From an uncultured archaeon (lineage in GTDB: Archaea; Thermoproteota; Nitrososphaeria; Nitrososphaerales; Nitrosopumilaceae), in NCBI GenBank assembly GCA_937896495.1, contig CALBNQ010000221.1, positions 1-23,993 of the forward strand: a stretch of DNA of 23,993 bases, given 5' to 3'. The position numbers were made by a program, and so were the translations under genes. Of the stretch, positions 1,213 to 18,474 are shown piece after piece. The notes below the pieces were generated by a model. The model did not search any database. It saw only the letters and a program-made list of their open reading frames with translations, and was not told the DNA's origin. How positions within the stretch are numbered: position 1 is the first letter of the stretch; every line of letters starts with the position of its first letter.

Positions 1213-1950
1213 ATGACAATCAGGTATGAAGCCAATCCTCCAAAAATTTTACCAGATGTAAATACTGAAGAGTCAATTATAAAATTTGTAAATAGAATAA
1301 AAAATATTTCAAAAAAATGTGATGCAATACATTTGACTGAAAATGTATTAGGTTTTCAAAGAGTATCGCCAATTCAGATTGGGAAAATCATCAAAAAAGA
1401 AATACCAAATTTTCCAATTACAGTTAGTCTAAGAGTCAGAGATAAAACAAAAAAAGAAATCGATGAATTTGTAGAAGAATGTATCAGGGCAGGATTTTCA
1501 GGGATTTTGATTCTAATGGGAGACCCATCACAAACAGGGAAAGAAGACTCAGGACTAATTCCAAGTCAAGTAGTACAGGAATTAAGAGAGAAAAAAATAG
1601 ACTCAAAAATTGAATTATATCTTTCAATATCAAATAAACCAAATTTTTCTAAGATTGGAAAAAAATTACAAGCAAAACCTAAAGGATTCATGACACAAGT
1701 AATTCAGAATATCAAACAAGCCCAAAATCTCTCAGAAAATCTTAAAGAATTTTCAATCATTCCAATCATTCTATTCCCTTCAGAAAAAAATGAAAAATCT
1801 GCAAAATTTTTACAGTTAGATTTTTCATCATATAATCAAACATTTGAAGAATTTGTGAAAAAAATCCATGAAATTACAGGAGATGTGTTAATTACATCAC
1901 CTAATGATTTTAATGGATTAAACGAATTTTTAGAAAAATCAAATATCTAA
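1213..1950 (+). CDS. metF: Short methylenetetrahydrofolate reductase-like protein
   Basis: A TIM-barrel flavoprotein of the MetF family would reduce 5,10-methylene-tetrahydropterin to the 5-methyl form, the methyl donor for MetH. The N-terminal YEANPPK segment corresponds to the E-x-x-PP motif with the catalytic Glu. ITVSLRVRDKTKKEIDEF and SGILILMGDP match the MetF core, including the conserved GDP segment. At 245 residues it is shorter than bacterial MetF (about 290). I chose ATG 1213 because family homology begins there (MTIRYEANPPK) and a TATA-like element sits 26 bases upstream; an in-frame TTG/ATA extension to 1117 would overlap the divergent Nudix gene. The TAA at 1948-1950 overlaps the stop of the convergent MetH gene. 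Whether the cofactor is folate or a methanopterin-type pterin cannot be read from the sequence. Confidence 0.75.
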   Translation: MTIRYEANPPKILPDVNTEESIIKFVNRIKNISKKCDAIHLTENVLGFQRVSPIQIGKIIKKEIPNFPITVSLRVRDKTKKEIDEFVEECIRAGFSGILILMGDPSQTGKEDSGLIPSQVVQELREKKIDSKIELYLSISNKPNFSKIGKKLQAKPKGFMTQVIQNIKQAQNLSENLKEFSIIPIILFPSEKNEKSAKFLQLDFSSYNQTFEEFVKKIHEITGDVLITSPNDFNGLNEFLEKSNI

Positions 1951-4445
1951 AGAACAAAATATTTTGCATCTGGGTGATGAACAACAATTGCAGCTGTAGA
2001 TTGTTCAGGAATTATTTGACCAGACTCAGTTAATGTCATTCCAGATTTTTCAGGATGTAAAAGTTTCCAAACCAAATGATGTTGAGATACATCAGGACAG
2101 CTAGGAAACCCCCAACTATAACGAAGACCACCACGTTGTAGATTTAATTCAGATTTAATTTTTTGATTAGTCCATTCTGCTAATGCTTCAGCAACTTCAA
2201 CTGCTAATCCATGTAAATAATAAGCATCAGTGTATTTGTCTTCAGTGTTCCATTGTTCAATGATTTCTGCAACTTTATTTCCAACAGTTACGGATTGAAA
2301 TGCAACAACATCAGTTTTACCAAAATAATCAGTCAAACACAAATGTTCAGATTTTGTAGAACGTGGGAATTCTAATTCGACATCATCTCCAGAAATATTC
2401 TCAATTAGTAATTTTCTACCATTATTATGACATTTGAAAAATCCATAAACAATTTCAGGCTCAAATAACTTCTCTCGAATTATTCTTACTTTCCATTCAG
2501 TTAGTAATTGTTCATGTTCTTCTTCAGATTCAGAACCTGCCTTACCTCTTAATCCCCAAGATAATTTGAAAAGGGATTTTTTATCAATCATGGTCCAAAC
2601 TTCGGTCATATTGATTTGATCTAATTTTAATCGAATCGGCTCTCCAATTAATTTAGGTGTAGGAGGAATAGTAGGTTTGATATTACTTTTTGGAAGAGTG
2701 GTAGAATCTATAGGAGTACTAGATTTATCTTTCCAATTTTGTAATTTCTCTTTCCAATCAGCTAAAAGTTTTGGTTTTTCATTTGAAATTAAAGCATCCA
2801 TGGTTTTAAGACCTTCAAACATGGTATTACAGTAAAATACACCTGGCTCATAAATTCCATCTTCTTTTGCAATTCGATTAATGTAATTACTGTTAATGGC
2901 AGCTCCTCCACAAAGAAGAGGGACAGTCATGTTATTTTTTCTTGCATGTTCAACAAAAAATTTCATTTGTTTAGAAGTAGATACAAGTAATGCAGATAAT
3001 CCAACTGCATCAGGTTTTATCTCATCAATTTTTTCAAGGAATTTTTGTAATGGAACTTGCTTTCCTAAATCATGTACAGTATACCCATTATTTTGAAAAA
3101 TCGTTTTTACAAGATTTTTACCAATATCATGTACATCACCATACACAGTACCTAAAACAAGTACACCTTTGCTGGTTCCTTCCTCTTTGACTAAATATTT
3201 CTCCAATTCTCCAACGGCAGCCTTCATACATTCAGCAGACTTGAGAACAAATGGAAGAATCAATTCGCCTGAACCAAACTTATCCCCTACTTCCTTCATT
3301 GCAGGAAGTAAATCTTCATTGAGTGTTTTTATTGCGCTATCATGTGTTATGTTTTTTGATAAATTAAGAGACAAAGTACCTTCAAGATCACAAATATTTT
3401 CATTATTTCCTAATTTTTCTGCGATTGCAGAAACAACATCATTTTGAATTCCATCTTTTAACCTATTTACAATTCTAAAATGGGCTCGTTTCCCAGCAGG
3501 CCAAGAAGGATCAACATCTACTTTTTTTGCAGTGGCATTATTTTGAGGTCCTGCATTTTCAAAATAGGTAATCAAATCAGAAAGAGCATTAGGATTAACA
3601 TTAAAAATTAGATCTTCTGCAAGTTTTCTTTCTTTTTCATTAATTTCACCATATGGAATGATTTCTTTTGCATTGACAATTGCCGTGTCAAGACCAGATT
3701 TAACAGCGTGATACAAAAATACAGAATTTAAAATTTTCCTGGCATAAGGTGCTAAACCAAAACTAATGTTACTTAAGCCCAAAGTAGTAAAAGAGTTAGG
3801 AAATTTTTCTTTAACTAATCGAATTCCTTCAAGAGTATTTTTTCCTGCATCAAGAAATTCATCTTCACCAGTTGCCAAAGTAAATGTGAGAACATCAAAA
3901 ATGAATTGTTCTATTTTTAATCCATATTTTTTTCCTGTTTCATAAAGTAATTCTGCAGTATCAACTTTTTGCTGAGGTGTTTTTGCCATACCTTCTGGAC
4001 CAATACACAAAGCAACTGCAGGTAAACCATATTTTGCCATTACAGGAGCTAATTTTTCAAATCTGCTTCCATCACCTTCAAGATTAATTGAATTGATGAT
4101 AGGTCTTCCAGGAATTTGTGTTACAGATGCTTCAATCACATCAGGATCAGTAGAATCAATTACAAGAGGTGCATCAATTTCTAAACTTAATCGTTTTACC
4201 AAATTTAACATGAACTCACGTTCATCTGCACGTTCAGTTGTTGCAACACAAACATCTAAACAATGAGCACCATCCTCAACTTGAATTCTCCCTAAATCAA
4301 CTAGACCATCATAATCATCATCAATAACTAGTTTCTTTGCTTTACGAGACCCCTGAGTATTGATTCGTTCTCCAATAATCATAGGTGCAGGAATTTGTTT
4401 TAGATCAACTGCCTTTAACGCAGAACTTACTCTAGGAACTGTCAA
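1947..4445 (-). CDS. metH: Methionine synthase, pterin/cobalamin/reactivation subunit
   Basis: Large part of cobalamin-dependent methionine synthase, 832 residues, cytosolic. Domains in order: a pterin-binding TIM barrel (about 20-290, starting at GERINTQG), the B12 cap helices (about 325-425), the Rossmann B12 domain with DVHDIG at 437-442 (His439 is the cobalt ligand), a Pro/Thr-rich linker (about 575-600), and the AdoMet reactivation domain (about 605-832) with RYSWGFPSCPD at 775-785. The homocysteine/zinc domain is missing here and is encoded by the gene just upstream (4477-5436), so the two proteins must act together. The TTG start at 4445 is chosen because no upstream in-frame ATG exists and the barrel follows closely. 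The stop TAG (1949-1947) overlaps the metF stop. E. coli MetH carries all four domains in one 1227-residue chain. Confidence 0.95.
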   Translation of the reverse strand: MTVPRVSSALKAVDLKQIPAPMIIGERINTQGSRKAKKLVIDDDYDGLVDLGRIQVEDGAHCLDVCVATTERADEREFMLNLVKRLSLEIDAPLVIDSTDPDVIEASVTQIPGRPIINSINLEGDGSRFEKLAPVMAKYGLPAVALCIGPEGMAKTPQQKVDTAELLYETGKKYGLKIEQFIFDVLTFTLATGEDEFLDAGKNTLEGIRLVKEKFPNSFTTLGLSNISFGLAPYARKILNSVFLYHAVKSGLDTAIVNAKEIIPYGEINEKERKLAEDLIFNVNPNALSDLITYFENAGPQNNATAKKVDVDPSWPAGKRAHFRIVNRLKDGIQNDVVSAIAEKLGNNENICDLEGTLSLNLSKNITHDSAIKTLNEDLLPAMKEVGDKFGSGELILPFVLKSAECMKAAVGELEKYLVKEEGTSKGVLVLGTVYGDVHDIGKNLVKTIFQNNGYTVHDLGKQVPLQKFLEKIDEIKPDAVGLSALLVSTSKQMKFFVEHARKNNMTVPLLCGGAAINSNYINRIAKEDGIYEPGVFYCNTMFEGLKTMDALISNEKPKLLADWKEKLQNWKDKSSTPIDSTTLPKSNIKPTIPPTPKLIGEPIRLKLDQINMTEVWTMIDKKSLFKLSWGLRGKAGSESEEEHEQLLTEWKVRIIREKLFEPEIVYGFFKCHNNGRKLLIENISGDDVELEFPRSTKSEHLCLTDYFGKTDVVAFQSVTVGNKVAEIIEQWNTEDKYTDAYYLHGLAVEVAEALAEWTNQKIKSELNLQRGGLRYSWGFPSCPDVSQHHLVWKLLHPEKSGMTLTESGQIIPEQSTAAIVVHHPDAKYFVL

Positions 4446-4476
4446 TATGTAAAATCACATCTATTTTTGTAAATAC

Positions 4477-5436
4477 TTAACCATTGACAGAATTGGCTTT
4501 TTCGTTAATTACTTTTCTCAACGCTTTGATGTGTTCCGGATTTGTCCCACAACAACCACCAATTATTCGAACTTTTTTGTATTCATTAAGAAAATCACCC
4601 AATGCATCACCCATCTTTTCAGGTGTCATTTTGTAAACTGCTTGACCACCATCATTTTCAGGCATCCCAGCATTTGGAACTACTAACACATTATGTTCAT
4701 TTTGTTCATTTAACCATCGGACACTAGGAGTCATTTCAATTGGACCAGTTGAACAATTCAATCCAAATACATCAATCCCCATATCTGAAACAGTCGTATA
4801 TGCTGCTTGAATATTTGTTCCAAGTAACATTTTTCCATATTGATCCAAAGTGGTATTTGCAATAATTGGAATTTTTTTGCCAGTTTTTTTTATCGCATTA
4901 TGACATGCCTCAATAACTAATTTCACTTCCAAAATATCTTGACTTGTTTCAATCAATAATGCATCAACACCTCCAAGAATCAAACCTTCAGCTTGTAATT
5001 CAAATGCCTCTCGTATTTCATCAAGAGGTTTTTGGCCCAAATCAGGATCATTTGAACTTGGCAAATATCCAGTTGGACCCATAGAACCAATTACAAACTT
5101 TGTATCAGAATATTCTTTACAAACTTCAGATGCAAGTGTTGCAATTTTTTTATTAAATTCAATTGTTTGATCACCAAACCCATATTCATCAAGTTTGATT
5201 TTATTTGAACCAAAAGAATTTGTTTCAATACAATCAGAACCAGCATCTAAATAATTTCTATGAATCTGTTTTATCCATTCAGGATGAGTTAAGACTAAAC
5301 CATCATTAAATCCATCTTGATTGTTTGGAAAGTCTTCAGGTTTTGGATCATGTCTTTGAATTTCAGTTCCCATTGCACCATCAAACAATAATACTCGATT
5401 TTTCATTGCATCAAGAAATAATTCTTTTTCTGTCAA
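4477..5436 (-). CDS. metH: Methionine synthase homocysteine-binding (zinc) subunit
   Basis: Homocysteine S-methyltransferase barrel of 319 residues, equivalent to the N-terminal domain of MetH. It opens with LLFDGAMGTEIQR and has the three zinc-ligand cysteines of the family: Cys228 in GLNCSTGP, and Cys295-Cys296 in GGCCGTNPEHIK. It would bind and activate homocysteine and receive the methyl group from the cobalamin subunit encoded 31 bases downstream in the same operon. Alone it resembles betaine- or S-methylmethionine-dependent methyltransferases (MmuM type), but the immediate partner makes a split MetH the better reading. The start is TTG at 5436 in the context ATATTGACAG, identical to that at the start of the partner gene. 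A palindrome at 5458-5472 lies in its promoter region. Confidence 0.92.
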   Translation of the reverse strand: MTEKELFLDAMKNRVLLFDGAMGTEIQRHDPKPEDFPNNQDGFNDGLVLTHPEWIKQIHRNYLDAGSDCIETNSFGSNKIKLDEYGFGDQTIEFNKKIATLASEVCKEYSDTKFVIGSMGPTGYLPSSNDPDLGQKPLDEIREAFELQAEGLILGGVDALLIETSQDILEVKLVIEACHNAIKKTGKKIPIIANTTLDQYGKMLLGTNIQAAYTTVSDMGIDVFGLNCSTGPIEMTPSVRWLNEQNEHNVLVVPNAGMPENDGGQAVYKMTPEKMGDALGDFLNEYKKVRIIGGCCGTNPEHIKALRKVINEKANSVNG

Positions 5437-6659: not shown

Positions 6660-7427
6660 TTATCTTAAACCCCAACGAGACATTACTTTGTTTTCCAATT
6701 TTTGGAAAACTACACCATCAACTGCAAGACCAATTCCCATGATAATTAGCATCATGGCAATAACTTGAGATACGTCATTTAAAGAACGTCCAGCATTAAG
6801 CAAAAAGCCTAATCCTAAAAAGGAGAAGAGAATTTCAGCACCAATTACACCTCTCCAGGCAAATGCCCAGCCTTGTTTAAAACCTGAAATCATGTATGGG
6901 AATGCTGCAGGAATTAAAACTGCTGTGATTAATTGAGTTCCTTTTGCACCCATATTTCTTGCAGCCTCAATGAAATGGGGATCAATGTTTTTCACACCAG
7001 TATAGGTGTTAATAGTAACTGCAAAAATTGCACCAATTGCAGTAACAAAAATAATCCCGCCATCAGTTAATCCAAACCAAAGAATTGCAAGTGGAACCCA
7101 TGCAATAGAAGGAATTGATTGTAATCCCAAAACCAATGAACCCACTGTTTGATTAATCATTTCAATTCTTGCCATAAAAATTCCTAAGACAACTCCACCA
7201 GCAATAGCTATAGCCAATCCGATAGATAATCTCCACAAACTAGTTGCAATACCATAAAATAGACTTCCATCTGCTGCACCATACACTAAATCTTCAGCAA
7301 CTTCAAATGGTGAAGGGAAAATATTTTCAGGCCACATTCCAGACATTGCAGTGATTTGCCAAATTACAACAATTCCAATGTAAAATGCAATTCTAAAGGG
7401 AGTAAAATTTTTTACCATTACAATCAC
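6660..7427 (-). CDS. ABC transporter permease, NitT/TauT (SsuC/TauC) family
   Basis: Membrane component of an importer, about 255 residues with six predicted hydrophobic segments. The cytoplasmic coupling loop EAARNMGAKGTQLITAVLIP fits the EAA motif of binding-protein-dependent permeases, in the form seen in SsuC/TauC/NrtB. It would form a dimer and contact the ATPase encoded just upstream. The start is a GTG at 7427 overlapping the ATPase stop as GTGA; an ATG three codons further in (7418) is the alternative and changes little. It is the last gene of the three-gene operon and ends 14 bases from the convergent MFS gene. Confidence 0.88.
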   Translation of the reverse strand: MIVMVKNFTPFRIAFYIGIVVIWQITAMSGMWPENIFPSPFEVAEDLVYGAADGSLFYGIATSLWRLSIGLAIAIAGGVVLGIFMARIEMINQTVGSLVLGLQSIPSIAWVPLAILWFGLTDGGIIFVTAIGAIFAVTINTYTGVKNIDPHFIEAARNMGAKGTQLITAVLIPAAFPYMISGFKQGWAFAWRGVIGAEILFSFLGLGFLLNAGRSLNDVSQVIAMMLIIMGIGLAVDGVVFQKLENKVMSRWGLR

Positions 7428-8188
7428 TCTTTACTTTTCTTTACCTCAGGTCGAAGTTCATTTAGAAGATCTTTTTGAAATTTTAACAAGGATTCATCTT
7501 CTGTAACTCTAGGTCGTGGAAAATTATTATCAACTTCTTTTTTAATCAATGATGGTCTATTACTAAACACTGCAACTTTTGTACCTAACACTGCAGCTTC
7601 TGCAACATTGTGAGTTACAAACAAAATTGTTTTCTTTGTTTTTTCCCAAATTAATTGCATCTCCACTAATAACAAATCACGAGTTTGTGCATCAAGGGCT
7701 GCAAATGGTTCATCCATCAATAATACATCAGGATCCATTACAAGAGCTCTTGCTATAGCTACACGTTGCTTCATCCCAGTTGAAAGCTGATATGTGTATG
7801 AATCTGCAAACTTTGTCAATTGCATCATATCCAAATATCTATGAGATATCTTTGCACGTTCTTCTTTTGGTATACCTGCCATCTTTAATCCAAATTCTAC
7901 ATTGTCTTGAACTTTGAGCCATGGGAATAATGCACCCTCCTGAAATACCATAATTCTTTCAGGGCCAGTTTCATGAACAGGACGACCATCAAACAAAATT
8001 TGACCATCATCAGGTTGCTCCAAGCCTGCAACTATGCGTAAAAAGGTAGATTTTCCACATCCTGAAGGACCAATTAAACAAACAAAGTCACCTGCCTCAA
8101 CTTTGAGGTTTACCCCACCTAATGCTTTGAGTTTATGAGAGTCATGATTGAAATATTTTACAATATTTTTAGCTTCAAGTTTAGTCAT
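7424..8188 (-). CDS. ABC transporter ATPase, NitT/TauT (SsuB/TauB) family
   Basis: Nucleotide-binding subunit of 254 residues that powers the importer on the cytoplasmic face. All motifs are present: Walker A GPSGCGKST (40-48), the Q-loop Gln83 in VFQEGALFPW, signature LSTGMKQR (135-142), Walker B VLLMDEP (155-161) followed by the D-loop FAALD, and the switch His193. The signature has Thr where LSGG is usual, a tolerated variant. Sequence features (GLEQPDDGQILFDG, EGALFPWLKV) place it with the nitrate/sulfonate/taurine ATPases. The ATG at 8188 overlaps the TAA of the binding-protein gene by one base (TAATG), and its own stop overlaps the permease start, so the three genes are tightly coupled. 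Confidence 0.93.
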   Translation of the reverse strand: MTKLEAKNIVKYFNHDSHKLKALGGVNLKVEAGDFVCLIGPSGCGKSTFLRIVAGLEQPDDGQILFDGRPVHETGPERIMVFQEGALFPWLKVQDNVEFGLKMAGIPKEERAKISHRYLDMMQLTKFADSYTYQLSTGMKQRVAIARALVMDPDVLLMDEPFAALDAQTRDLLLVEMQLIWEKTKKTILFVTHNVAEAAVLGTKVAVFSNRPSLIKKEVDNNFPRPRVTEDESLLKFQKDLLNELRPEVKKSKE

Positions 8189-9213
8189 TAAGTTACAGCA
8201 TCCTCCAATGAATTTGTATCAAAGTAGTAAAAAATACCAGACAAATCATATCCATTTCTTCCAAGGTATCCAAGAGTATCTGCTTTTTCAGCAAATGAAA
8301 AAATAGAATCAGATTTAGGATCATCAGTTATTTTAAGATTAGATAATGCAATATCAACTACATCATCAGAAAGAGATTGTCCTAAATGAGAATCAAGAAA
8401 ATTATTAAAAACAATTCTAGTGTCTTTTGGATTATCATTGATCCAAATCATTGTTTCATGATGTGCTGATAAAAAATTTTGAATTACTTTTTTGTTTTTT
8501 TCAATATAATTAACATTCCCAATCAAAAGAACAGAAGCAAATTCATTTTCAGGCCATAATTCTTCTTCATAAAATAATCGTTTACCATCAAGTTCACTTT
8601 CCAAAATTGTTGCCCAAGGTTCTGCAACCCATGCACCATCAATATCACCTTTTACAAATAACGTGTAGATATCAGGATTTGAAATATTGTAAACAATTAC
8701 ACTGCCACCTTTTTCAGCAGGTCTTAAATTATTTTCAGATAAATAATTACGCAAAGAAACATCTTGTGTATTTCCAATTTGAGGGGCAGCTATTTTTTTT
8801 CCTGAAAAATCAGAAGCAGAATTTATTTCAGAATCTGGATGAACAATGAAACTTGCACCACCACTTGCTGCACCAGCCAAAATTTTTACATTGTTATTTT
8901 GGGAATTTAAAAATCCATTAATTGCAGGGCCAGGTCCCACATATGCAATATCAATAGAATTAGCAAACAAAGATTCTATTGCCTGTGGCCCACTATCAAA
9001 AACTCTCGTCTCAATTTTAATTTGATCTCCAAGACTGTTTTGAAAAAATCCATTTTCCATACCTACAATCGGAATAGCGTGTCCAATATTTGGAAAATAT
9101 GCAATACGAAGTTTAGGATCAGAGGTAGTTTCACTAGAATTAAGAAAAATTCCCAATACAGAAAAAACTACAATTCCTGCAATTCCTACAAAAATTACTG
9201 AACGAATTTTCAT
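8188..9213 (-). CDS. ABC transporter substrate-binding protein, NMT1/SsuA-like
   Basis: Extracytoplasmic binding protein of 341 residues and first gene of the transporter operon. A single hydrophobic N-terminal segment (about residues 5-24) would serve as signal or membrane anchor; no lipobox cysteine is present, so anchoring by an uncleaved helix is likely. The mature part begins KLRIAYFPNIGHAIPIVGM, typical of NMT1/SsuA/TauA-like proteins, with DIAYVGPGPAINGF and the GDIDGAWVAEPWA segment that lines the binding cleft in this family. Family members bind nitrate, sulfonates, taurine, bicarbonate or pyrimidine precursors, and the sequence does not let me choose. The gene is divergent from argG with a 135-base gap. 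Confidence 0.88.
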   Translation of the reverse strand: MKIRSVIFVGIAGIVVFSVLGIFLNSSETTSDPKLRIAYFPNIGHAIPIVGMENGFFQNSLGDQIKIETRVFDSGPQAIESLFANSIDIAYVGPGPAINGFLNSQNNNVKILAGAASGGASFIVHPDSEINSASDFSGKKIAAPQIGNTQDVSLRNYLSENNLRPAEKGGSVIVYNISNPDIYTLFVKGDIDGAWVAEPWATILESELDGKRLFYEEELWPENEFASVLLIGNVNYIEKNKKVIQNFLSAHHETMIWINDNPKDTRIVFNNFLDSHLGQSLSDDVVDIALSNLKITDDPKSDSIFSFAEKADTLGYLGRNGYDLSGIFYYFDTNSLEDAVT

Positions 9214-9348: not shown

Positions 9349-10548
9349 ATGACTCAAAAAGGCATTCTTGCATTTTCAGGTGGATTAGATACATCAGTAG
9401 TTGTAAAGTATCTACAAGATGAACATGATATGGATGTCATAACAGTAACTGTAGATGTTGGTCAAGGAGATAATGCAAAAAAAATTGCTGCAAAAGCGAA
9501 GTCATTGGGAGTAAAAAAGCATTACAACATTGATGCAAGAAAAGAGTTTGTCAAAGATTACATTTTTCCATCGATTAAAGCCAATGCACTTTATCAAAAA
9601 AAATATTGTTTAGCAACTGCTCTTGCCAGACCACTAATTGCAGAAAAAGTATTAGAAATTGCAAAAAAAGAAAAAGTGACAGCATTAGCACACGGATGTT
9701 CAGGAAAAGGAAATGATCAAGTACGTTTTGATATTACATTAAGGGCAGGTTCAGATTTACCAATAATTGCACCAATTCGAGATAAGAATTTAGACAGAGT
9801 TACTGAATTAAAATTTGCAGATAAACATGGAATTGAAATTGATTCTGTTGCAAAAAAATTTAGTATTGATCAAAATTTGTGGGGACGTGCAATTGAAGGA
9901 GGAGTATTGGAAGATCCATACAACGAACCACCAGAAGATGCATTCATTTGGATTAAAACAAACGATTTACCAGATAAGCCAACATATTTAGAAATAGAAT
10001 TTCAAAAAGGAATTCCAATTAAAGTGGACGGAAAAATTATGGATCCTCAAAAACTAATTGAATACATTAACAAAAAAGCAGGAAATGCAGGTGTTGGAAT
10101 AGTTGATCATATTGAAGACAGAGTTGTTGGAATCAAATCTCGCGAAGTGTATGAGACACCAGCTGCAACATGTCTAATTGAAGCACATTCAGATTTAGAA
10201 AAAATGGTTCACACAAAACATGAAAATAAATTCAAATCAATCATAGATGATGAATGGGCATATTTGGTATATTCAGGACTTTGGCAAGATCCATTAAAAA
10301 CGGATTTGGACGGGTTTATCGAAGCATCACAAAAACAAGTAACAGGAACTGTAAAACTCAAAATGTACAAAGGGAATCTAAGAGTAGTCGGAAGAAAATC
10401 AAAGAACTCCCTATACAGTCATGAGATTGCCACTTATGGAACAGAATCCACATTTGATCAAAGATTAGCCAGAGGTTTCGTAGAATTATGGGGAATGCAG
10501 TCAACAGAAGCTAATAAATTACAAAAGAAGAGGTTTTCAAAAACATGA
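9349..10548 (+). CDS. argG: Argininosuccinate synthase
   Basis: Condenses citrulline and aspartate, with ATP cleaved to AMP and PPi, in the penultimate step of arginine synthesis. The 399-residue length is normal. The N-type PP-loop SGGLDTS is at 10-16, and AHGCSGKGNDQVRFD and the following RAGSDLPIIAPIRD match the family core. The ATG at 9349 follows the divergent spacer with the ABC operon; only a poor TATA-like stretch (about 9315-9322) is visible. Its TGA overlaps the ATG of lysW1 (ATGA), so it heads the arginine part of the LysW operon. argH, its usual downstream partner, is not in this window. Confidence 0.97.
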   Translation: MTQKGILAFSGGLDTSVVVKYLQDEHDMDVITVTVDVGQGDNAKKIAAKAKSLGVKKHYNIDARKEFVKDYIFPSIKANALYQKKYCLATALARPLIAEKVLEIAKKEKVTALAHGCSGKGNDQVRFDITLRAGSDLPIIAPIRDKNLDRVTELKFADKHGIEIDSVAKKFSIDQNLWGRAIEGGVLEDPYNEPPEDAFIWIKTNDLPDKPTYLEIEFQKGIPIKVDGKIMDPQKLIEYINKKAGNAGVGIVDHIEDRVVGIKSREVYETPAATCLIEAHSDLEKMVHTKHENKFKSIIDDEWAYLVYSGLWQDPLKTDLDGFIEASQKQVTGTVKLKMYKGNLRVVGRKSKNSLYSHEIATYGTESTFDQRLARGFVELWGMQSTEANKLQKKRFSKT

Positions 10549-10712
10549 ACTGTCCAGAATGTGATGCAACTCTAAACATCCCAGACGATGCCTCTGTTGG
10601 AGAAATAGTCTCCTGTCCTGATTGTGGAGCAGATTTTGAAATATCAAAAAAAGATGGATCAAATATCGAGCTTAAACAAGCAGAAAGTGTAGGCGAAGAC
10701 TGGGGAGAGTAA
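10545..10712 (+). CDS. lysW: LysW amino-group carrier protein, copy 1 (C-terminal Glu)
   Basis: Small acidic carrier of 55 residues. In LysW systems the gamma-carboxylate of the C-terminal Glu is joined to the amino group of glutamate or alpha-aminoadipate, protecting it and presenting it to later enzymes. A zinc ribbon is formed by CPEC (Cys3, Cys6) and CPDC (Cys24, Cys27), and the chain ends in the classic EDWGE. It starts at ATG 10545 inside the argG stop, and its TAA shares a base with the ATG of the next gene (TAATG), placing carrier and ligase under coupled translation. By neighbourhood it should serve the arginine branch. The two zinc pairs, size and terminal motif make the call secure. 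Confidence 0.95.
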   Translation: MNCPECDATLNIPDDASVGEIVSCPDCGADFEISKKDGSNIELKQAESVGEDWGE

Positions 10713-11597: not shown

Positions 11598-12644
11598 ATG
11601 AAAGTAGGTGTTGTAGGTGCATCAGGTTATGTAGGAGGAGAGACACTTCGTCTTCTTGTTAATCATCCAGATGTTGAAATTGCAATGGTTACATCAAGAC
11701 AACATGTAGGAGAATATCTTCACAGAGTACAACCTAGTTTGAAAGGTTTTACCGATCTAACATTTTCTGAAATGGATTATGATAAATTAACTGACAAATG
11801 TGATTTGGTTTTTACAGCAGTACCACATGGAACTGCAACTGAAATTGTAAAAGCATTGTATGATAGGGGAATCAAAATTATTGATTTGAGTGCGGATTAT
11901 AGATTACACAATCAAGAAGCATATGACAAATGGTATGGATGGGAGCATCCTCATCCAGATTATTTGAAAAAATCAGTTTTTGGTGTACCAGAGTTACATA
12001 GAGAAGAGATTAAAAAATCACAACTAGTTTCGTGTCCAGGATGTATGGCAGTAACATCAATGTTAGCATTAGCCCCATTGATTCGAAATGATTTGATTGA
12101 CACAGAGCATATTGTTGTAGATTCAAAAATTGGTTCATCAGGTGCAGGTTCAGGTTCTGGAACAGCACATGCAATGAGAGCAGGTGTAATTAGACCATAC
12201 AAACCTGCAAAGCACAGACACACAGGTGAGATTGAACAAGAGCTTAGTGAAATTGCTGGAAAGAAAATTAATGTTTCAATGAGTCCACATGCAGTAGATG
12301 TTGTTCGTGGAATTTTATGTACCAATCACACATTCATGAAAAAAGATGTTGATGAAAAAGAATTATGGAAATTATACAGACAAACTTATGGTGATGAAAA
12401 ATTTGTGAGATTAATTAGAGATAAAAAAGGATTATACAAATTCCCTGATCCAAAATTCTTGGTTGGTTCAAACTTTTGTGATATCGGATTTGATTTAGAT
12501 GAAGATAACAACAGATTGATTGCATTATCTGCATCAGATAACTTGATGAAAGGTGCAGCAGGTTCAGCCATTCAAAACATGAATGTAATGTGTGGTTTTG
12601 ATGAAATGAACGGACTAAGATACACTCCATTAACTCCGGTTTAG
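11598..12644 (+). CDS. lysY: LysW-aminoadipate/glutamate semialdehyde-forming reductase
   Basis: NADPH-dependent reductase of the ArgC/LysY family, 348 residues. It converts the phosphorylated LysW-bound glutamate or aminoadipate into the semialdehyde. The Rossmann GASGYVGGE motif is at 8-15, and the catalytic Cys149 sits in SCPGCMAVTS, the form seen in LysW-type reductases rather than the NPGCYPT of classical ArgC. The GSSGAGSGSGTAH segment and the later SMSPHAVDVVRG fit the family. It is single copy in the window, so one enzyme probably serves both branches, as described for Sulfolobus. It is followed two bases later by lysZ. Confidence 0.94.
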   Translation: MKVGVVGASGYVGGETLRLLVNHPDVEIAMVTSRQHVGEYLHRVQPSLKGFTDLTFSEMDYDKLTDKCDLVFTAVPHGTATEIVKALYDRGIKIIDLSADYRLHNQEAYDKWYGWEHPHPDYLKKSVFGVPELHREEIKKSQLVSCPGCMAVTSMLALAPLIRNDLIDTEHIVVDSKIGSSGAGSGSGTAHAMRAGVIRPYKPAKHRHTGEIEQELSEIAGKKINVSMSPHAVDVVRGILCTNHTFMKKDVDEKELWKLYRQTYGDEKFVRLIRDKKGLYKFPDPKFLVGSNFCDIGFDLDEDNNRLIALSASDNLMKGAAGSAIQNMNVMCGFDEMNGLRYTPLTPV

Positions 12645-12646
12645 AA

Positions 12647-13450
12647 ATGATCACAATCAAAATTGGTGGAAGTGTAGTAGATGATTTACATCCATCAACA
12701 ATTTTAGATATTAAAAAAATAGCAGAATCAGAAGGTGTTATTCTAGTACATGGTGGCGGAAAAGAAGTTACCAAAGTTTGTAAACAATTAGGGAAAGAAC
12801 CAAAGTTTGTAACATCACCAAGTGGAATTAAAAGTAGATACACCGACAAAGAAACTGCAGAAATTTTTACAATGGTAATGTCAGGTAGAATTAACAAAAC
12901 AATTGTTCAAATGCTTCAAAAAAATGGAATAAATGCAATTGGACTTTCAGGAGTTGATGCCAAAGTAATAGAGGCAGATAGAAAGAAAAAACTACTCATA
13001 GTTAATGAAAAAGGAAGAAAACAAGCAATTGATGGTGGATATACGGGAAAAATCAAAGCAATAAACTCAGAATTTATCAATTCCCTCCTAGAAAGAGGAT
13101 TAACACCAGTTATCTCACCTATTGCAATCAGTGAAGAATCAGAATTTCTTAATGTTGATGGAGATAGAGCAGCAGCATATGTTGCAGGAAAAGTTGGATG
13201 TGATAAAGTATTATTCATAACAAATGTTGATGGACTTTTAATGGATGACAAAGTGGTTTCAAAACTCACACTTGCTGAAGCAAAAGAGATTAGACCAAAA
13301 ATAGGTCCAGGTATGGAGAAGAAAATTTTAGCATCAACTGAAGCATTAGATATGGGAGTCAAAAAAGCATTAATTGCAAATGGTCAAAAAGAAAATCCGA
13401 TTTCTTGTGCTATTGCACATGACAATTGTACGGTGATTGAACATGAGTGA
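12647..13450 (+). CDS. lysZ: LysW-aminoadipate/glutamate kinase
   Basis: Amino-acid kinase of the ArgB/LysZ family, 267 residues, phosphorylating the free side-chain carboxylate of LysW-bound aminoadipate or glutamate. The N-terminal ITIKIGGSVVDD holds the conserved Lys5 and glycines, and VILVHGGGKEV is the phosphate-binding loop typical of NAG kinases. NVDGDRAAAYVAGKVGCDKV and FITNVDGLL form the ATP side. It starts at ATG 12647, two bases after the lysY stop, and its last codons overlap the start of lysJ by 8 bases. There is no N-terminal extension of the arginine-inhibited NAG kinase type. Confidence 0.93.
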   Translation: MITIKIGGSVVDDLHPSTILDIKKIAESEGVILVHGGGKEVTKVCKQLGKEPKFVTSPSGIKSRYTDKETAEIFTMVMSGRINKTIVQMLQKNGINAIGLSGVDAKVIEADRKKKLLIVNEKGRKQAIDGGYTGKIKAINSEFINSLLERGLTPVISPIAISEESEFLNVDGDRAAAYVAGKVGCDKVLFITNVDGLLMDDKVVSKLTLAEAKEIRPKIGPGMEKKILASTEALDMGVKKALIANGQKENPISCAIAHDNCTVIEHE

Positions 13451-14621
13451 AGATCAATTTATGGGAAACCTCTATCAGAGATTTCCAGTTACAGTTGAAA
13501 AAGGAGTAGGAGCTCATGTATGGGATGTTGATGGAAAAGAATACATCGATTGTATGGGAGGATACGGTGTTGCATTAGTTGGTCATCAAAATAAAAGAGT
13601 TAATGATGCAATAAAAAATCAAATTGACAAAATCATTACAGTGCATAGTTCTCTTTACAATAAAACAAGAGAAGAGTTTTTAAAAACACTAATTGGTTTA
13701 GCTCCCAAAGAACTAACACAAGTTCATCTAAACAATAGTGGAGCAGAGGCAATAGAAGCTGCAATGAAATTTGCAAGAAAGTTCACAGGCAAAAAAGGAA
13801 TGGTTGCCATGAAAGGATCATACCATGGAAAATCATTTGGATCTTTATCACTGACATTTAATCCAAAATACAGAAAAGCATTTGCACCACTAGTGGAAAA
13901 AGTTTCTTTTGCATCATATGGAGATATGGAATCACTGCGTTCAGTAATTGATGAAGATACAGCATTTATCATTTTAGAACCAATTCAGGGTGAAAGTGGA
14001 ATTATTGTTGCACCAAATGGATTTTTGCAAGAAGTTAGAAAGTTGTGTGATGAAAAAGGAATTCTGTTAATCTTTGACGAAATTCAAGCAGGTTTAGGTA
14101 GAACAGGACGATTATGGGCATGTGACCATTGGAATACTGCACCAGATATTTTATGTCTTGCAAAAGGAATTGCAGGGGGAGTTCCAATGGGTGCAACACT
14201 TGTTCGTCCAGATATTTTAGCATCGATTAGTAAAGGAGAGCATTCATCCACATTTGGAGGAAATCCAATTTCCTGTGCAGCAGGTACTGCAGCACTCAAA
14301 GCGTTAACAGAAGATGGATTAATTGAAAATTCAGAAAAAATGGGAAAAATGTTCAAAGAAGGATTAGAAAAATTAAAAGAAAAACATTCCATGATTAGAG
14401 AAATTCGTGGAAAAGGACTCATGATTGGTGTTGAGATGAAATTTGAAGTAAGAGATATTTTAATGGGATTAATCAAAGAAGGAGTTTTGATGTTATATTC
14501 TGGAAGAAACATCCTAAGAATACTTCCTCCATTAGTAATATCTGAAGAAGATGTAACAAAAGTTTTACATGCTCTAGATATCATACTAACAAAAGAGGAA
14601 GAAAAAAGAAATGCAAAATGA
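13443..14621 (+). CDS. lysJ: LysW-aminoadipate/glutamate semialdehyde aminotransferase
   Basis: Class-III PLP aminotransferase of 392 residues (ArgD/LysJ) that transfers an amino group from glutamate to the LysW-bound semialdehyde, giving LysW-lysine or LysW-ornithine. Motifs in order are HLNNSGAEAIEAAMK (cofactor phosphate), GSYHGKSFGSLS, LIFDEIQAGLGRTG (Asp binding the PLP nitrogen) and LAKGIAGGVPMGA, with the Schiff-base Lys in the last. I chose ATG 13443 over the TTG two codons upstream. It overlaps lysZ by 8 bases, and its own 3' end overlaps the regulator gene by 11 bases. It is single copy, so it probably serves both the lysine and arginine branches. Confidence 0.94.
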   Translation: MSEDQFMGNLYQRFPVTVEKGVGAHVWDVDGKEYIDCMGGYGVALVGHQNKRVNDAIKNQIDKIITVHSSLYNKTREEFLKTLIGLAPKELTQVHLNNSGAEAIEAAMKFARKFTGKKGMVAMKGSYHGKSFGSLSLTFNPKYRKAFAPLVEKVSFASYGDMESLRSVIDEDTAFIILEPIQGESGIIVAPNGFLQEVRKLCDEKGILLIFDEIQAGLGRTGRLWACDHWNTAPDILCLAKGIAGGVPMGATLVRPDILASISKGEHSSTFGGNPISCAAGTAALKALTEDGLIENSEKMGKMFKEGLEKLKEKHSMIREIRGKGLMIGVEMKFEVRDILMGLIKEGVLMLYSGRNILRILPPLVISEEDVTKVLHALDIILTKEEEKRNAK

Positions 14622-15030: not shown

Positions 15031-15113
15031 AAGCGACATTCGGTCAATAATTAAAATTCAAAACTAGTTTAGGATCAGATTTTTTCATTTGTAACGATGT
15101 TAGTACGAATATG

Positions 15114-15120
15114 TTTATAT
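15114..15120 (+). promoter_or_regulatory. Putative TATA box for the homocitrate synthase-lysK operon
   Basis: TTTATAT is centred about 31 bases upstream of ATG 15148, so the transcript would have a leader of only a few bases. It is the best TATA match in the 117-base gap after lysM and shows that the second lys run has its own promoter. It also argues against a start at 15097, which would lie upstream of the transcript. A T6 run at about 15080-15085 could end the preceding transcript. Confidence 0.55.
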
Positions 15121-15147
15121 CATCTATTTAGGTTAACGATTTCAGTA

Positions 15148-16314
15148 ATGAAGGATCCGAATCACTATGCAAATTTGTATAACGCATACGACAAAAACCC
15201 AAAAAAAATTAGAGTGTTAGACAGTACACTTAGAGAAGGTGAGCAACATCCAGGAGTTTCATTTACAAACAAACAAAGAATTCAGATTGCATGGATGTTA
15301 GATTATTTTGGTGTTGATCAAATTGAGATTTCACCAGTAGTGTCAAATGATCACAAAGAAGCAACAAAGACAATAATCAAACAAGGATTAAATGCAGATA
15401 TTGTATCTCATGGACGTGCACTCAAACAAGACATTGACATTTCATTAGATTGTGATGCAAAATGGTGTGCAGCATATTTAGGAATTTCAGATATTCATCT
15501 TAAGGATAAACTACGGATTTCAAGAGAAGATGCACTAGAGAGAGCTGTTGAAACTGTAGAATATGCAAAATCACATGGACTTAAAATTAGATTTACAGTT
15601 GAAGACGGAAGTAGAGCAGAGCCAGAATTTTTACTCAAAGTTTGTAAAGCAATTGAAGATGCAGGTGTAGATAGAATTAGTCTTCCAGATACAGTTGGCA
15701 TAATGCGTCCAATTGGAATGTATAATTTTGTTAAAAAAGTTAGCAGTATTATTGATGTACCATTAGATGCACATGTTCATAATGATATTGGATTTGCAGT
15801 AGCAAATGCATTTTCAGCATGTGATGCAGGAGTAGATCAAATTCATACAACAATTGATGGGATTGGCGAAAGAACTGGAATTCCGTCTCTTGCAGAAGTT
15901 GCAGTTGCATTAACATACTTGTACAAATCACCAAATGATTTTAGATTAGACATGTTACAAGATCTTTCTAGATTAATTGAAGAATATACAATAATCAAAC
16001 CATATGATTCAAAACCAATTGTGGGGTCATCAGCATACAAACACAAAGCAGGAACACACCTTGCAGCAATTCTTAAGAATCCTGCAGCGTACGAGCCTAT
16101 TCCTCCAAGAGCAGTAGGAAATAGACGAAAGATAGTGTTTGGAGAATTAGCAGGAAAAACAGGTGCAGGATACCTAATGTCACTATTAGGCCTTGAAAAG
16201 AACGAAGAAAGTGCAAAAGCTGTGGCTGCAGGACTAAAAAATCTAAGAATGGGAGATCTCATAGAAATTCCACTAGAAGACAGGCTAGAAAAAAAGATAA
16301 TTAATGATAAATAA
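15148..16314 (+). CDS. lysS: Homocitrate synthase
   Basis: Condenses 2-oxoglutarate with acetyl-CoA to homocitrate, the committed step of the aminoadipate route to lysine. It is a DRE-TIM metallolyase of 388 residues: RVLDSTLREGEQHPGVSF (about 22-39) holds the metal and substrate residues, DAHVHNDIGFAVANAF the metal-binding HxH region, and TTIDGIGERTGIPSLAEV the conserved glycine loop. HKAGTHLAAI further on is typical of homocitrate rather than isopropylmalate synthases. The start at ATG 15148 agrees with the family N terminus and with the TATA box upstream. The context (lysW2, lysX, lysK downstream) supports homocitrate over citramalate or isopropylmalate synthase. The symbol follows Sulfolobus usage and must not be confused with lysyl-tRNA synthetase. 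Confidence 0.92.
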   Translation: MKDPNHYANLYNAYDKNPKKIRVLDSTLREGEQHPGVSFTNKQRIQIAWMLDYFGVDQIEISPVVSNDHKEATKTIIKQGLNADIVSHGRALKQDIDISLDCDAKWCAAYLGISDIHLKDKLRISREDALERAVETVEYAKSHGLKIRFTVEDGSRAEPEFLLKVCKAIEDAGVDRISLPDTVGIMRPIGMYNFVKKVSSIIDVPLDAHVHNDIGFAVANAFSACDAGVDQIHTTIDGIGERTGIPSLAEVAVALTYLYKSPNDFRLDMLQDLSRLIEEYTIIKPYDSKPIVGSSAYKHKAGTHLAAILKNPAAYEPIPPRAVGNRRKIVFGELAGKTGAGYLMSLLGLEKNEESAKAVAAGLKNLRMGDLIEIPLEDRLEKKIINDK

Positions 16315-16336: not shown

Positions 16337-16504
16337 ATGGCAAAATGTGATGAATGTGATGCAACTATTTCAATACCAAGTGATGCACTTGAAGGTGAAA
16401 TTGTGACATGTCCAGAATGTGGTGCAAGTTTTGAATTAGCAAAAGGTTCAGACGGTTTCGATCTAAAGCCTGCCCAAACGGTTGGCGAGGATTGGGGACA
16501 GTGA
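16337..16504 (+). CDS. lysW: LysW amino-group carrier protein, copy 2 (C-terminal Gln)
   Basis: Second carrier of 55 residues. The zinc ribbon is formed by Cys4/Cys7 (CDEC) and Cys25/Cys28 (CPEC), and the end is VGEDWGQ. The last residue is Gln (CAG) where LysW proteins need Glu, the residue whose side-chain carboxylate receives the substrate. The rest of the terminal motif is intact, so the gene is not degenerate. The product would need deamidation, a different chemistry, or is a sequencing variant. ATG 16337 is preceded by AGGAA at 16326-16330. The stop TGA is overlapped by the GTG start of lysX (GTGA at 16501-16504), so carrier and ligase are coupled as in copy 1. Neighbours place it in the lysine branch. 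Confidence 0.93.
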   Translation: MAKCDECDATISIPSDALEGEIVTCPECGASFELAKGSDGFDLKPAQTVGEDWGQ

Positions 16505-17343
16505 ATCCTGACGTTACAATTCTTTACGATACCATACGTTGGGAAGAAAAGGCACTGCTAGAGGCAGGTAAAAAAAATGATATCAACATACAGATGGTTG
16601 ATTGTAAAAAATTAGCATTAAATTTAGAAAAAAAACCTGAAGAATACGGAGTTGTAATTCAGAGGTGTGTAAGTTATTACAGAAATTTACATTCAACTGC
16701 AGCTCTTGAAGGGTTAGGAGTCAAAGTAATCAATTGTTTGAATACAGGAGTGTTTGCAGGAAATAAATTATTCACACATATGTTATTAAAAAAATTCAAT
16801 GTACCAACTCCAGATGCAACTGTTGCTTTTTCAAAAGATGCAGCTTTAGAAGCATTACAAACAGAAGGGTTTCCCAAAGTAATCAAACCAACAGTGGGTA
16901 GTTGGGGCAGATTAATTTCAAAATTAAATGATAAAGATGCAGCAGAAGGAATAATTGAAAGTAGAGAAAGTATGTATCCAATTTATCAAATTCATTATCT
17001 TGAAGAATTTGTAAAAAGACCACCAAGAGACATTAGAGCAATCATGGTGGGTGATAAAATTGTTGCAGCAATTTACAGAATTTCTAAACATTGGAAAACG
17101 AACATGGCACTTGGAGGAACAGCTGAGCCATGTAAAGTTACTTCAGAGATGGAAGAAATGTGTATCAAAGCAAAAAATGCAGTTCAAGGAGATATTGTAG
17201 GAGTAGATTTGATGGAAAGTGATGAGAAAGGGTTGGTAGTACATGAGGTTAACAATACAACAGAATACAAGAATACTGTTAGAGTGTGTGATGTAGATAT
17301 TCCATCACTCATGTTAGATTATGCATTAAAGGTAGACAAGTAA
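16501..17343 (+). CDS. lysX: LysW-alpha-aminoadipate ligase LysX
   Basis: ATP-grasp ligase of 280 residues, paralogue of the gene at 10712-11569. Motifs include VVIQRCVSYYRNLHSTAA, KVIKPTVGSWGRLISKL, RPPRDIRAIMVGDKIVAAIYR and VVHEVNNTTEYKNTVRV. SWGRL (134-138), SKHWKTN (195-201), GGTAEPC and EYKN are close to the corresponding segments of Thermus LysX as I recall them, which points to alpha-aminoadipate as substrate and to lysine synthesis. Its neighbours, homocitrate synthase upstream and lysK downstream, agree. The start is GTG 16501, overlapping lysW2 as GTGA; a TTG three codons earlier (16492) would extend it into lysW2 without adding family sequence. The recalled comparison should be confirmed by alignment. 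Confidence 0.9.
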   Translation: MNPDVTILYDTIRWEEKALLEAGKKNDINIQMVDCKKLALNLEKKPEEYGVVIQRCVSYYRNLHSTAALEGLGVKVINCLNTGVFAGNKLFTHMLLKKFNVPTPDATVAFSKDAALEALQTEGFPKVIKPTVGSWGRLISKLNDKDAAEGIIESRESMYPIYQIHYLEEFVKRPPRDIRAIMVGDKIVAAIYRISKHWKTNMALGGTAEPCKVTSEMEEMCIKAKNAVQGDIVGVDLMESDEKGLVVHEVNNTTEYKNTVRVCDVDIPSLMLDYALKVDK

Positions 17344-17346
17344 GAA

Positions 17347-18474
17347 TTGGACACACATTTTACAGTAACTCCAAAATTTGCAACTAAAATGTTGGAAAAA
17401 GCACTAAAGTTGTACACACCCTCACTAAGCGAAAAACCAATGGCTGAATTTTTAGCTGATAAATGTGATGATTTAGGATTTGAAGATATCCAAATTGATG
17501 AAGTAGGTAATGTTATTGCAAAGAAAGGTTCAGGATCACCAACAATTATGCTATGTGGACACATGGATGTAGTTCCTGGAAAAGTCAAAGTGAGAAGAGA
17601 AGGAGATTCGCTTTATGGAAGAGGCGCATCAGATGCAAAAGCACCACTAATGGCAATGCTATTTGCTGCAGCATCAATTCAAAATAATAAGGGAACAATA
17701 ATTTTTGTTGGAGCAGTAGATGAAGAAGGAAATGCCATAGGAATTAAAAATATTGTAAAAAATAAGTGGGATGTAGATTATGCAGTTTTTGGCGAACCAA
17801 GTGGAATAAAACAAGTTACAATTGCATACAAGGGAAGATTAGCAATTAATCTAAAAATTAGTGTAGAAGATAGTTCACATGCAAGTGCACCATGGCTTTC
17901 AAAAAATGCAATTCAAGAATCATCTATTTTTGCAAATGAACTTAAAGAAAAATTAGAAGAAGGTCAAGAGGGCAGAACAAAAGGAATGCTTCTAACTGTA
18001 ACAATGACTGAAGTTAAAGGTGGAACAAGTCATAATGTAACACCAAAAGAATGTGAAACAACTTTTGATATTAGAATTCCAGTAGACATGAATTGTAAAT
18101 CAATTGAGCAAAAAATTGCAGTGTTAGTTAAGGAAATTGCTGAAAAGCGAAAAGTGGAGGCATTTTATTCAATACTTGATGAAACAGAACCATTTGAGGC
18201 AGCTCATAATTCACCTCTAGTTAGAGCATTTACTTTGGGAGTTATGGAGGCTGAAAAATCAAGACCTATGTTAATTAGAAAAACAGGTACAGGGGACATG
18301 AATGTTTTAGGAAATCAATGGAGTATCCCTGTAGTTACTTACGGTCCAGGAGATCCACACGAAGCCCATACAATTGATGAAAAAGTTTCAATTGATGAAT
18401 ACCTAAGAGGTATAGAAATTCTCAAAAAAACATTACAGCATTTAAAAAGACTTCATGACAAAAAAATGCAATAA
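17347..18474 (+). CDS. lysK: LysW-lysine/ornithine hydrolase
   Basis: M20-family metallopeptidase of 375 residues that releases lysine (and probably ornithine) from LysW, the last step of the carrier pathway. Metal-site motifs are CGHMDVVPG (His72, Asp74), GRGASDAKAP (Asp96) and VDEEGN (catalytic Glu126, Glu127), and GTGDMNVL and HTIDEKVS near the end are typical of LysK/ArgE/DapE proteins. A dimerisation domain occupies about residues 175-290. A TTG at 17347, three bases after the lysX stop, gives the N terminus; ATG 17389 (Met15) is the alternative but begins just before the conserved KLYTPSLSE helix. The TAA overlaps the ATG of the next gene. Confidence 0.92.
   Translation: MDTHFTVTPKFATKMLEKALKLYTPSLSEKPMAEFLADKCDDLGFEDIQIDEVGNVIAKKGSGSPTIMLCGHMDVVPGKVKVRREGDSLYGRGASDAKAPLMAMLFAAASIQNNKGTIIFVGAVDEEGNAIGIKNIVKNKWDVDYAVFGEPSGIKQVTIAYKGRLAINLKISVEDSSHASAPWLSKNAIQESSIFANELKEKLEEGQEGRTKGMLLTVTMTEVKGGTSHNVTPKECETTFDIRIPVDMNCKSIEQKIAVLVKEIAEKRKVEAFYSILDETEPFEAAHNSPLVRAFTLGVMEAEKSRPMLIRKTGTGDMNVLGNQWSIPVVTYGPGDPHEAHTIDEKVSIDEYLRGIEILKKTLQHLKRLHDKKMQ

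Follow-up and report, generated by a model that had tools for sequence, protein, structure and literature searches.

The gene lysW2 in the window, which is the whole stretch of 23,993 nucleotides analyzed here, encodes an amino-group carrier of the LysW kind that ends in glutamine rather than glutamate, and this Gln end is a conserved trait of the order, not an oddity of a single gene. Judging from comparisons of carrier and ligase sequences, the Gln-ended LysW is probably a working pro-carrier, which would be deamidated once to a Glu-ended form and then recycled through successive rounds of synthesis.

The lysine and arginine gene cluster of the window

The window carries a clustered arginine and lysine pathway in the order argG, lysW1, argX, argC, argB, argD, an Lrp-type regulator, a gene of the homocitrate/isopropylmalate synthase family, lysW2, lysX, and lysK, with argG named from the list of open reading frames (ORFs) only and the Lrp-type regulator named by eye. 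The features discussed below are the following.

10545..10712, forward strand: lysW1, paralogue of lysW2 with a VGEDWGE end (GAG TAA); from profiles and sequence; sole site of EDWGE followed by a stop codon in its genome
10712..11569, forward strand: argX, ArgX-type ligase (NNTVEFKGL) coupled to lysW1; from profile and motif
11598..12644, forward strand: argC/lysY reductase; TIGR01850 above cut-off
12647..13450, forward strand: argB/lysZ, [LysW]-aminoadipate/[LysW]-glutamate kinase; NF010662 above cut-off
13437..14621, forward strand: argD/lysJ aminotransferase; TIGR00707 above cut-off
15097..16314, forward strand: gene of the homocitrate/isopropylmalate synthase family, just upstream of lysW2; family-model scores below cut-off
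16337..16504, forward strand: lysW2, 55-aa zinc-ribbon amino-group carrier with the tail VGEDWGQ; from profile matches and ORF reading
16499..16501, forward strand: terminal CAG (Gln55) of lysW2; from sequence, with the codon kept in relatives
16501..17343, forward strand: lysX, LysX-type ATP-grasp ligase (NNTTEYKNT, GSWGR) with a GTG start that overlaps the stop of lysW2; TIGR02144 329 bits, cut-off 275.6
17347..18474, forward strand: lysK, M20 [LysW]-lysine/ornithine hydrolase; TIGR01902 278 bits, cut-off 163.1

No family model was above its cut-off for the gene at 15097–16314, the best scores being those of PRK00915 (418 of 517) and LysS_fung_arch (375 of 413.6), and lysK is under the cut-off of PRK04443 (277.7 of 363). 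The lysX product belongs to the RimK family according to the profile search. Elsewhere in the window, on the reverse strand, adjacent frames at 1947–5436 resemble a two-part methionine synthase and the region 6660–9213 looks like an ABC transporter together with its binding protein for the substrate, both read by eye from the ORF list.

The lysW2 ORF extends from an ATG start to a TGA stop (16502–16504) and is intact, as the earlier note had described it, with zinc-ribbon cysteines in two CxxC pairs (C4xxC7 and C25xxC28) and the VGEDWG motif. Both lysW2 and lysW1, which share 57% identity, score above the cut-offs of the archaeal carrier model NF041070 (88.2 and 92.6 bits, respectively; cut-off 75) and of PF21344 (46.8 and 54.3 bits; cut-off 27), while both fall short of TIGR01206, an older equivalog model (33.2 and 40.4; cut-off 53.2). 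The two end codons given in that note, CAG for lysW2 and GAG for lysW1, are likewise confirmed, the former with the support of relatives. The carriers known from Thermus, Sulfolobus, Thermococcus, and Natrinema (LysW/ArgW; PDB 3wwl, 3vpb, and 5k2m) also have a zinc ribbon and an EDWG tail and adjoin a LysX/ArgX ligase amid the full pathway, just as lysW2 is coupled to a LysX-type ligase with the GSWGR motif. However, they end in the Glu acceptor, and because lysW2 has EDWGQ in place of the canonical acceptor end EDWGE, its predicted product is classified here as a LysW variant rather than a canonical LysW.

Two trivial sources of the Gln codon were considered and rejected. The GTG start of lysX (16501–16503) overlaps the last base of the lysW2 CAG, but the overlap does not force a Gln, as GAG yields the identical GTG and as 12 of the 13 g24 genomes use CAA with a TAA stop and no shared GTG. 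A sequencing or assembly error was dismissed because relatives carry the same end. In LysX-paired LysW genes from Nitrosopumilaceae and named contigs, the last codon is CAG in 148, CAA in 3, and GAG in 5 (n = 156, in which named contigs partly duplicate genome-set entries, so that distinct DNA gives 132). The Gly codon before it takes all four synonyms in the same 156 rows (93, 40, 19, and 4).

Distribution and inheritance of Gln and Glu ends

The last residue was tabulated for 426 LysW rows, 348 of them distinct at the DNA level. The loci fetched for this come from the three families of the order, Nitrosopumilaceae (f1), Nitrosocaldaceae (f2), and Nitrososphaeraceae (f3), from 80 named contigs, and from genomes outside the order; 23 DNA stretches are common to the named contigs and the genome set. 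Within the window's family, LysW is matched in each of the 97 genomes with ≥90% completeness and ≤5% contamination, and two matches are the usual number per genome. Ligases were assigned to the LysX or ArgX type by the one motif residue (N or G) that distinguishes them in the literature. Counting distinct DNA, the LysX-paired LysW ends in Gln at 128 of 132 loci of Nitrosopumilaceae and named contigs (the other four end in Glu; G143 and L095 among the Glu cases are one contig), at 40 of 54 loci of Nitrososphaeraceae (the other 14 in Glu), and at 5 of 6 loci of Nitrosocaldaceae. Gln therefore predominates next to lysX in all three families, and GAG in related genomes, which the earlier note had named as evidence that would speak against its reading, is not the pattern. 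The ArgX-paired LysW ends in Glu at 65 of 65 loci of Nitrosopumilaceae and named contigs and at 7 of 7 of Nitrosocaldaceae; in Nitrososphaeraceae it ends in Gln at 29 of 33 and in Glu at 4 of 33. These paired counts omit LysW without a downstream ligase motif (seven in f1 and the named contigs, two in f2, four in f3, and 17 outside the order) and two rows outside the order with an unclear ligase motif. The Gln codons of Nitrososphaeraceae comprise 26 CAG and 14 CAA in LysX-paired genes and 6 CAG and 23 CAA in ArgX-paired genes. Outside the order, 36 of 38 LysW end in Glu, the remaining two being those of G268 and G244.

At 331 distinct loci, the last residue is exclusively Glu or Gln, for tails of the W-G type that the regular expression needs (a LysW without a W-G end would escape it). 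A single base change in GAG could just as well give Lys, Ala, Gly, Val, or Asp, and none of these residues occurs at the 331 loci. At one Nitrosopumilaceae locus (L322; G015:C161), a second LysW ends in Gln at the contig end with no readable ligase, and loci L094 and L121 showed no LysW.

Protein-database tallies, which are biased towards the tail of the query used, gave 114 Gln, one Glu, and five other ends among the best 120 of 302 matches to lysW2, and 101 Gln, 18 Glu, and one frameshifted end among the best 120 of 195 matches to a Nitrososphaera LysW1. A profile of carriers from outside the ammonia-oxidizing archaea returned 116 Glu and four Gln among the best 120 of 6173 matches, nine of these rows being already among the earlier lists. 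Four of the five odd rows of the lysW2 query overrun the Gln or Glu, probably because the gene caller misread TGA as Trp; the database LysW entries P0011, P0020, P0036, and P0042 have a Trp beyond the terminal Gln or Glu, and the odd row P0007 looks like an adaptor. Database protein P0269 is the same as the carrier at the Nitrosocaldaceae locus L153.

In the 99 genome records that gave the ends of both carriers (named and genome-set records overlap in part), the tails of the LysX and ArgX partners are Q/E in 68, Q/Q in 15, E/Q in 12, and E/E in 4. The genera g141 and g143 have swapped tails, the mirror image of Nitrosopumilaceae, and most ArgX-paired carriers of Nitrososphaeraceae end in Gln; the Gln trait is not bound to lysX. 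On a LysX tree of 137 of the 194 sequences, a quick build with many weak forks, the tail needs at least four changes versus 11.7 with shuffled labels, and the well-supported branches alone force two; as read from this tree, the tail history is one of long inheritance with some switches. Ligase residues that track the tail were also sought. All 194 LysX-type ligases (175 Gln-paired and 19 Glu-paired) have GSWGR, and a single, conservative column (Leu/Ile) exceeds a frequency difference of 0.7, so this candidate was rejected for LysX; for ArgX, tail and family vary together, which makes the many differing columns uninformative.

Genomes in which only Gln-ended carriers were found

In several relatives, only Gln-ended carriers were found. 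In all 13 g24 genomes there is one LysW above the PF21344 cut-off, always Gln-ended, together with two LysX-family ligases, the second of which is at 273–275 bits in three of the 13, just below the 275.6 cut-off. The argX frame opens before the end of argG at 12 of the 12 g24 loci fetched (from 12 of the 13 genomes), four of which were also mapped one gene at a time, and lysW1 is therefore gone from its slot. In g145, four of five genomes (G414, G421, G428, and G440) carry a single LysW, Gln-ended, and a single LysX-type ligase, the fifth (G434) being contaminated and mixed; an ArgX-type ligase was not found in these four, which implies that arginine is made another way or taken up.

An overlooked, divergent Glu-ended LysW was considered for such genomes and rejected, as searches with PF21344 to E 1, with NF041070, and with the exact DNA pattern gave none. 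The exact pattern for EDWGE followed by a stop codon is absent from 27 of 27 genomes (g24, g25, g139, g140, g145, g147, and G268), in a scan that would overlook a changed motif or sequence missing from the assembly, and whose list includes G418, 75% complete; in the window's own genome the pattern has one site, lysW1. Genome G430 belongs to a Q/Q genus and is presumably that of Nitrososphaera viennensis. The medium listed for this species contains no amino acids, as far as the excerpted description extends (PMC4129164), and an organism of this Q/Q genus would accordingly be expected to make both lysine and arginine. Judged from these gene complements, a Gln-ended LysW must be usable and its Gln would not abolish function, which agrees with the expectation in the earlier note that a loss of lysW2 function would be surprising.

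That note had also considered lysW2 to be a possible non-accepting variant, with lysW1 serving both branches. As a general answer this fails, because relatives with only Gln-ended LysW, such as g24 with its single carrier, keep both ligases; moreover, 15 of the 99 records have Gln on both carriers, and g141 and g143 show the reverse tail arrangement. The option can apply at most to Q/E genomes, that of the window among them, although these make up 68 of the 99 records, and G023 shows that one Glu carrier can serve both branches, as it has two ligases and only a Glu-ended, ArgX-paired LysW, with lysW2 missing. At this locus (L359), a GGGRAAAAPPKAGKG-type repeat expansion replaces lysW2 in the gap between the homocitrate-synthase-family gene and lysX. 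On the other hand, the remaining tail motif of lysW2 stays intact, and it is very improbable that in the window's organism lysW2 is a non-accepting scaffold or regulator while lysW1 carries both substrates. The carriers as such appear, from their sequences, to be exchangeable in evolution.

Proposed charging of the Gln-ended carrier

Carriers studied so far bind the substrate through its amine to the gamma-carboxylate of their terminal Glu, and the E54A replacement in Natrinema ArgW stops arginine synthesis so that the strain needs arginine, according to the sections of the report available to us (PMC10433800). In that carrier, then, the side chain is important. A Gln side chain cannot be activated in the manner of Glu, and hydrolysis of its amide would therefore be the simplest way out. 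We infer a route in which the side-chain amide of the terminal Gln would be hydrolyzed once to give Glu, LysX (or ArgX) with ATP would activate the new Glu and join the substrate amino group to it in the gamma linkage, and LysK would free lysine or ornithine in each round, leaving LysW-Glu. Since the carrier would return as LysW-Glu, one activation per molecule would be enough and even a slow activity would suffice. Deamidation is the reading that best fits the Glu/Gln-only ends, their conservation, and the nearly tail-blind ligases.

LysK itself is the favored deamidase, because its substrate LysW-gamma-Glu-Lys has the same gamma-amide as LysW-Gln, which may be written as LysW-gamma-Glu-NH2 with ammonia as the leaving group. 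The hydrolase was present in 11 of 11 genomes checked. The best PDB match of the lysK product is the Thermus [LysW]-lysine hydrolase (5xoy; 358 residues, E = 5.5e-52), in whose alignment the GHxD, DAK, GEPSG, and late HT segments of 17347–18474 are aligned; we take these segments to have metal-site roles. The two hydrolases are related, and the deamidation of a Gln tail is a proposal made here, no account of LysK doing so having come up in the sources consulted. The usual leaving group of LysK bears a carboxylate, however, which ammonia does not, and taken alone the assignment of the deamidation to LysK is tentative, at slightly under even chances. Of the three options in the earlier note, prior deamidation, as Dop does to Pup, fits best, without the extra deamidase gene, which is not required because the neighboring LysK cleaves the same kind of amide; an amide exchange by the ligase found no support.

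If the deamidase were some amidase different from LysK, whether dedicated or general, the genomic evidence for it would be the same as for the pro-carrier reading. The search for a deamidase suggested in the earlier note, however, gave no protein of the Pup-ligase/Dop family (PF03136) above the cut-off in 11 genomes, with a control search in which 1 of 14 known genomes had a match above it, and such an additional amidase is decidedly unlikely. A sub-threshold PF03136 match (E = 0.07) occurs in G414.

The Pup/Dop system of actinobacteria is nevertheless instructive. Dop deamidates Pup-Gln and removes Pup from its targets, and many species encode Pup-Glu, as stated in the accessible portion of a published account (PMC12288473). 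Pup is likewise a small protein with an encoded Gln end in some species and Glu in others, and one amidase both activates and releases it, which for LysW is proposed by analogy. Pup is regarded as unrelated to LysW and has a different chemistry partner, so the likeness is one of tail and mechanism, not of membership.

The earlier note had held that a general pattern of Gln-ended LysW charged directly would count against its reading; the general pattern is borne out by the order-wide counts, while direct charging is what the main and serious rival to deamidation proposes. According to this rival, the ligase activates the main-chain alpha-carboxylate, and the Gln carrier would be charged without deamidation, its side chain being irrelevant. 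RimK acts on the alpha-carboxylate of the last residue of ribosomal protein S6, and LysX belongs to the same ATP-grasp family, for which the S6 ligases serve as a model of this rival only. Alpha-carboxylate ligation accounts for the same genomics as deamidation, including the existence of all four tail combinations and tails that switch with almost no change in the ligase. Indifference to the side chain, however, predicts other last residues, which are lacking at the 331 loci; one set of argC, argB, and argD between the two carriers would face two linkages; and the gamma-carboxylate junction of known carriers and the inactive E54A (in the available sections of PMC10433800) also speak against it. 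We consider this rival unlikely, though it deserves to be taken seriously.

It is also conceivable that mistranslation of the Gln codon as Glu is frequent enough to supply active carrier. The archaeal indirect route to Gln-tRNA passes through Glu-tRNA-Gln, so that leftover misacylated tRNA is a matter of general archaeal biology, and the carrier is needed in catalytic amounts only. Such misreading would nonetheless occur at all Gln codons and does not explain why this one is so strictly conserved, and it is hardly to be expected.

The pro-carrier reading leaves one feature aside, as deamidation alone does not account for the strict Q/E pattern of Nitrosopumilaceae. An encoded off-state might serve to protect newly made carrier from the wrong ligase, although any simple rule of this sort is hard to square with the genera that have swapped or Q/Q tails. 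In the literature searched on LysW and the carrier, mostly open-access, no description of a Gln-ended LysW was found, and a metabolic model of SCM1 cites LysW (Nmar_1287) and ArgX without an activation step in the part of the text available (PMC6038301).

Lysine and arginine synthesis on a carrier is taken to be defined, among other things, by the terminal Glu of LysW, yet in most of the ammonia-oxidizing archaeal genomes sampled this Glu is missing from one carrier or more. The patterns Q/E, Q/Q, E/Q, E/E, single Q, and single E offer a ready-made series for the question why a carrier would be encoded in an off-state. If alpha-carboxylate charging is true, ammonia-oxidizing archaea would have a new linkage chemistry that is tolerated by the downstream enzymes, and the choice between Glu and Gln side chains would be irrelevant. 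The finding points either to such a different linkage chemistry or to an unrecognized step of carrier activation, perhaps the work of the hydrolase that the pathway already has and a parallel to Pup and Dop reached by convergence. By analogy with the bacterial tag Pup, the carrier is probably made in a switched-off form and must first lose ammonia.
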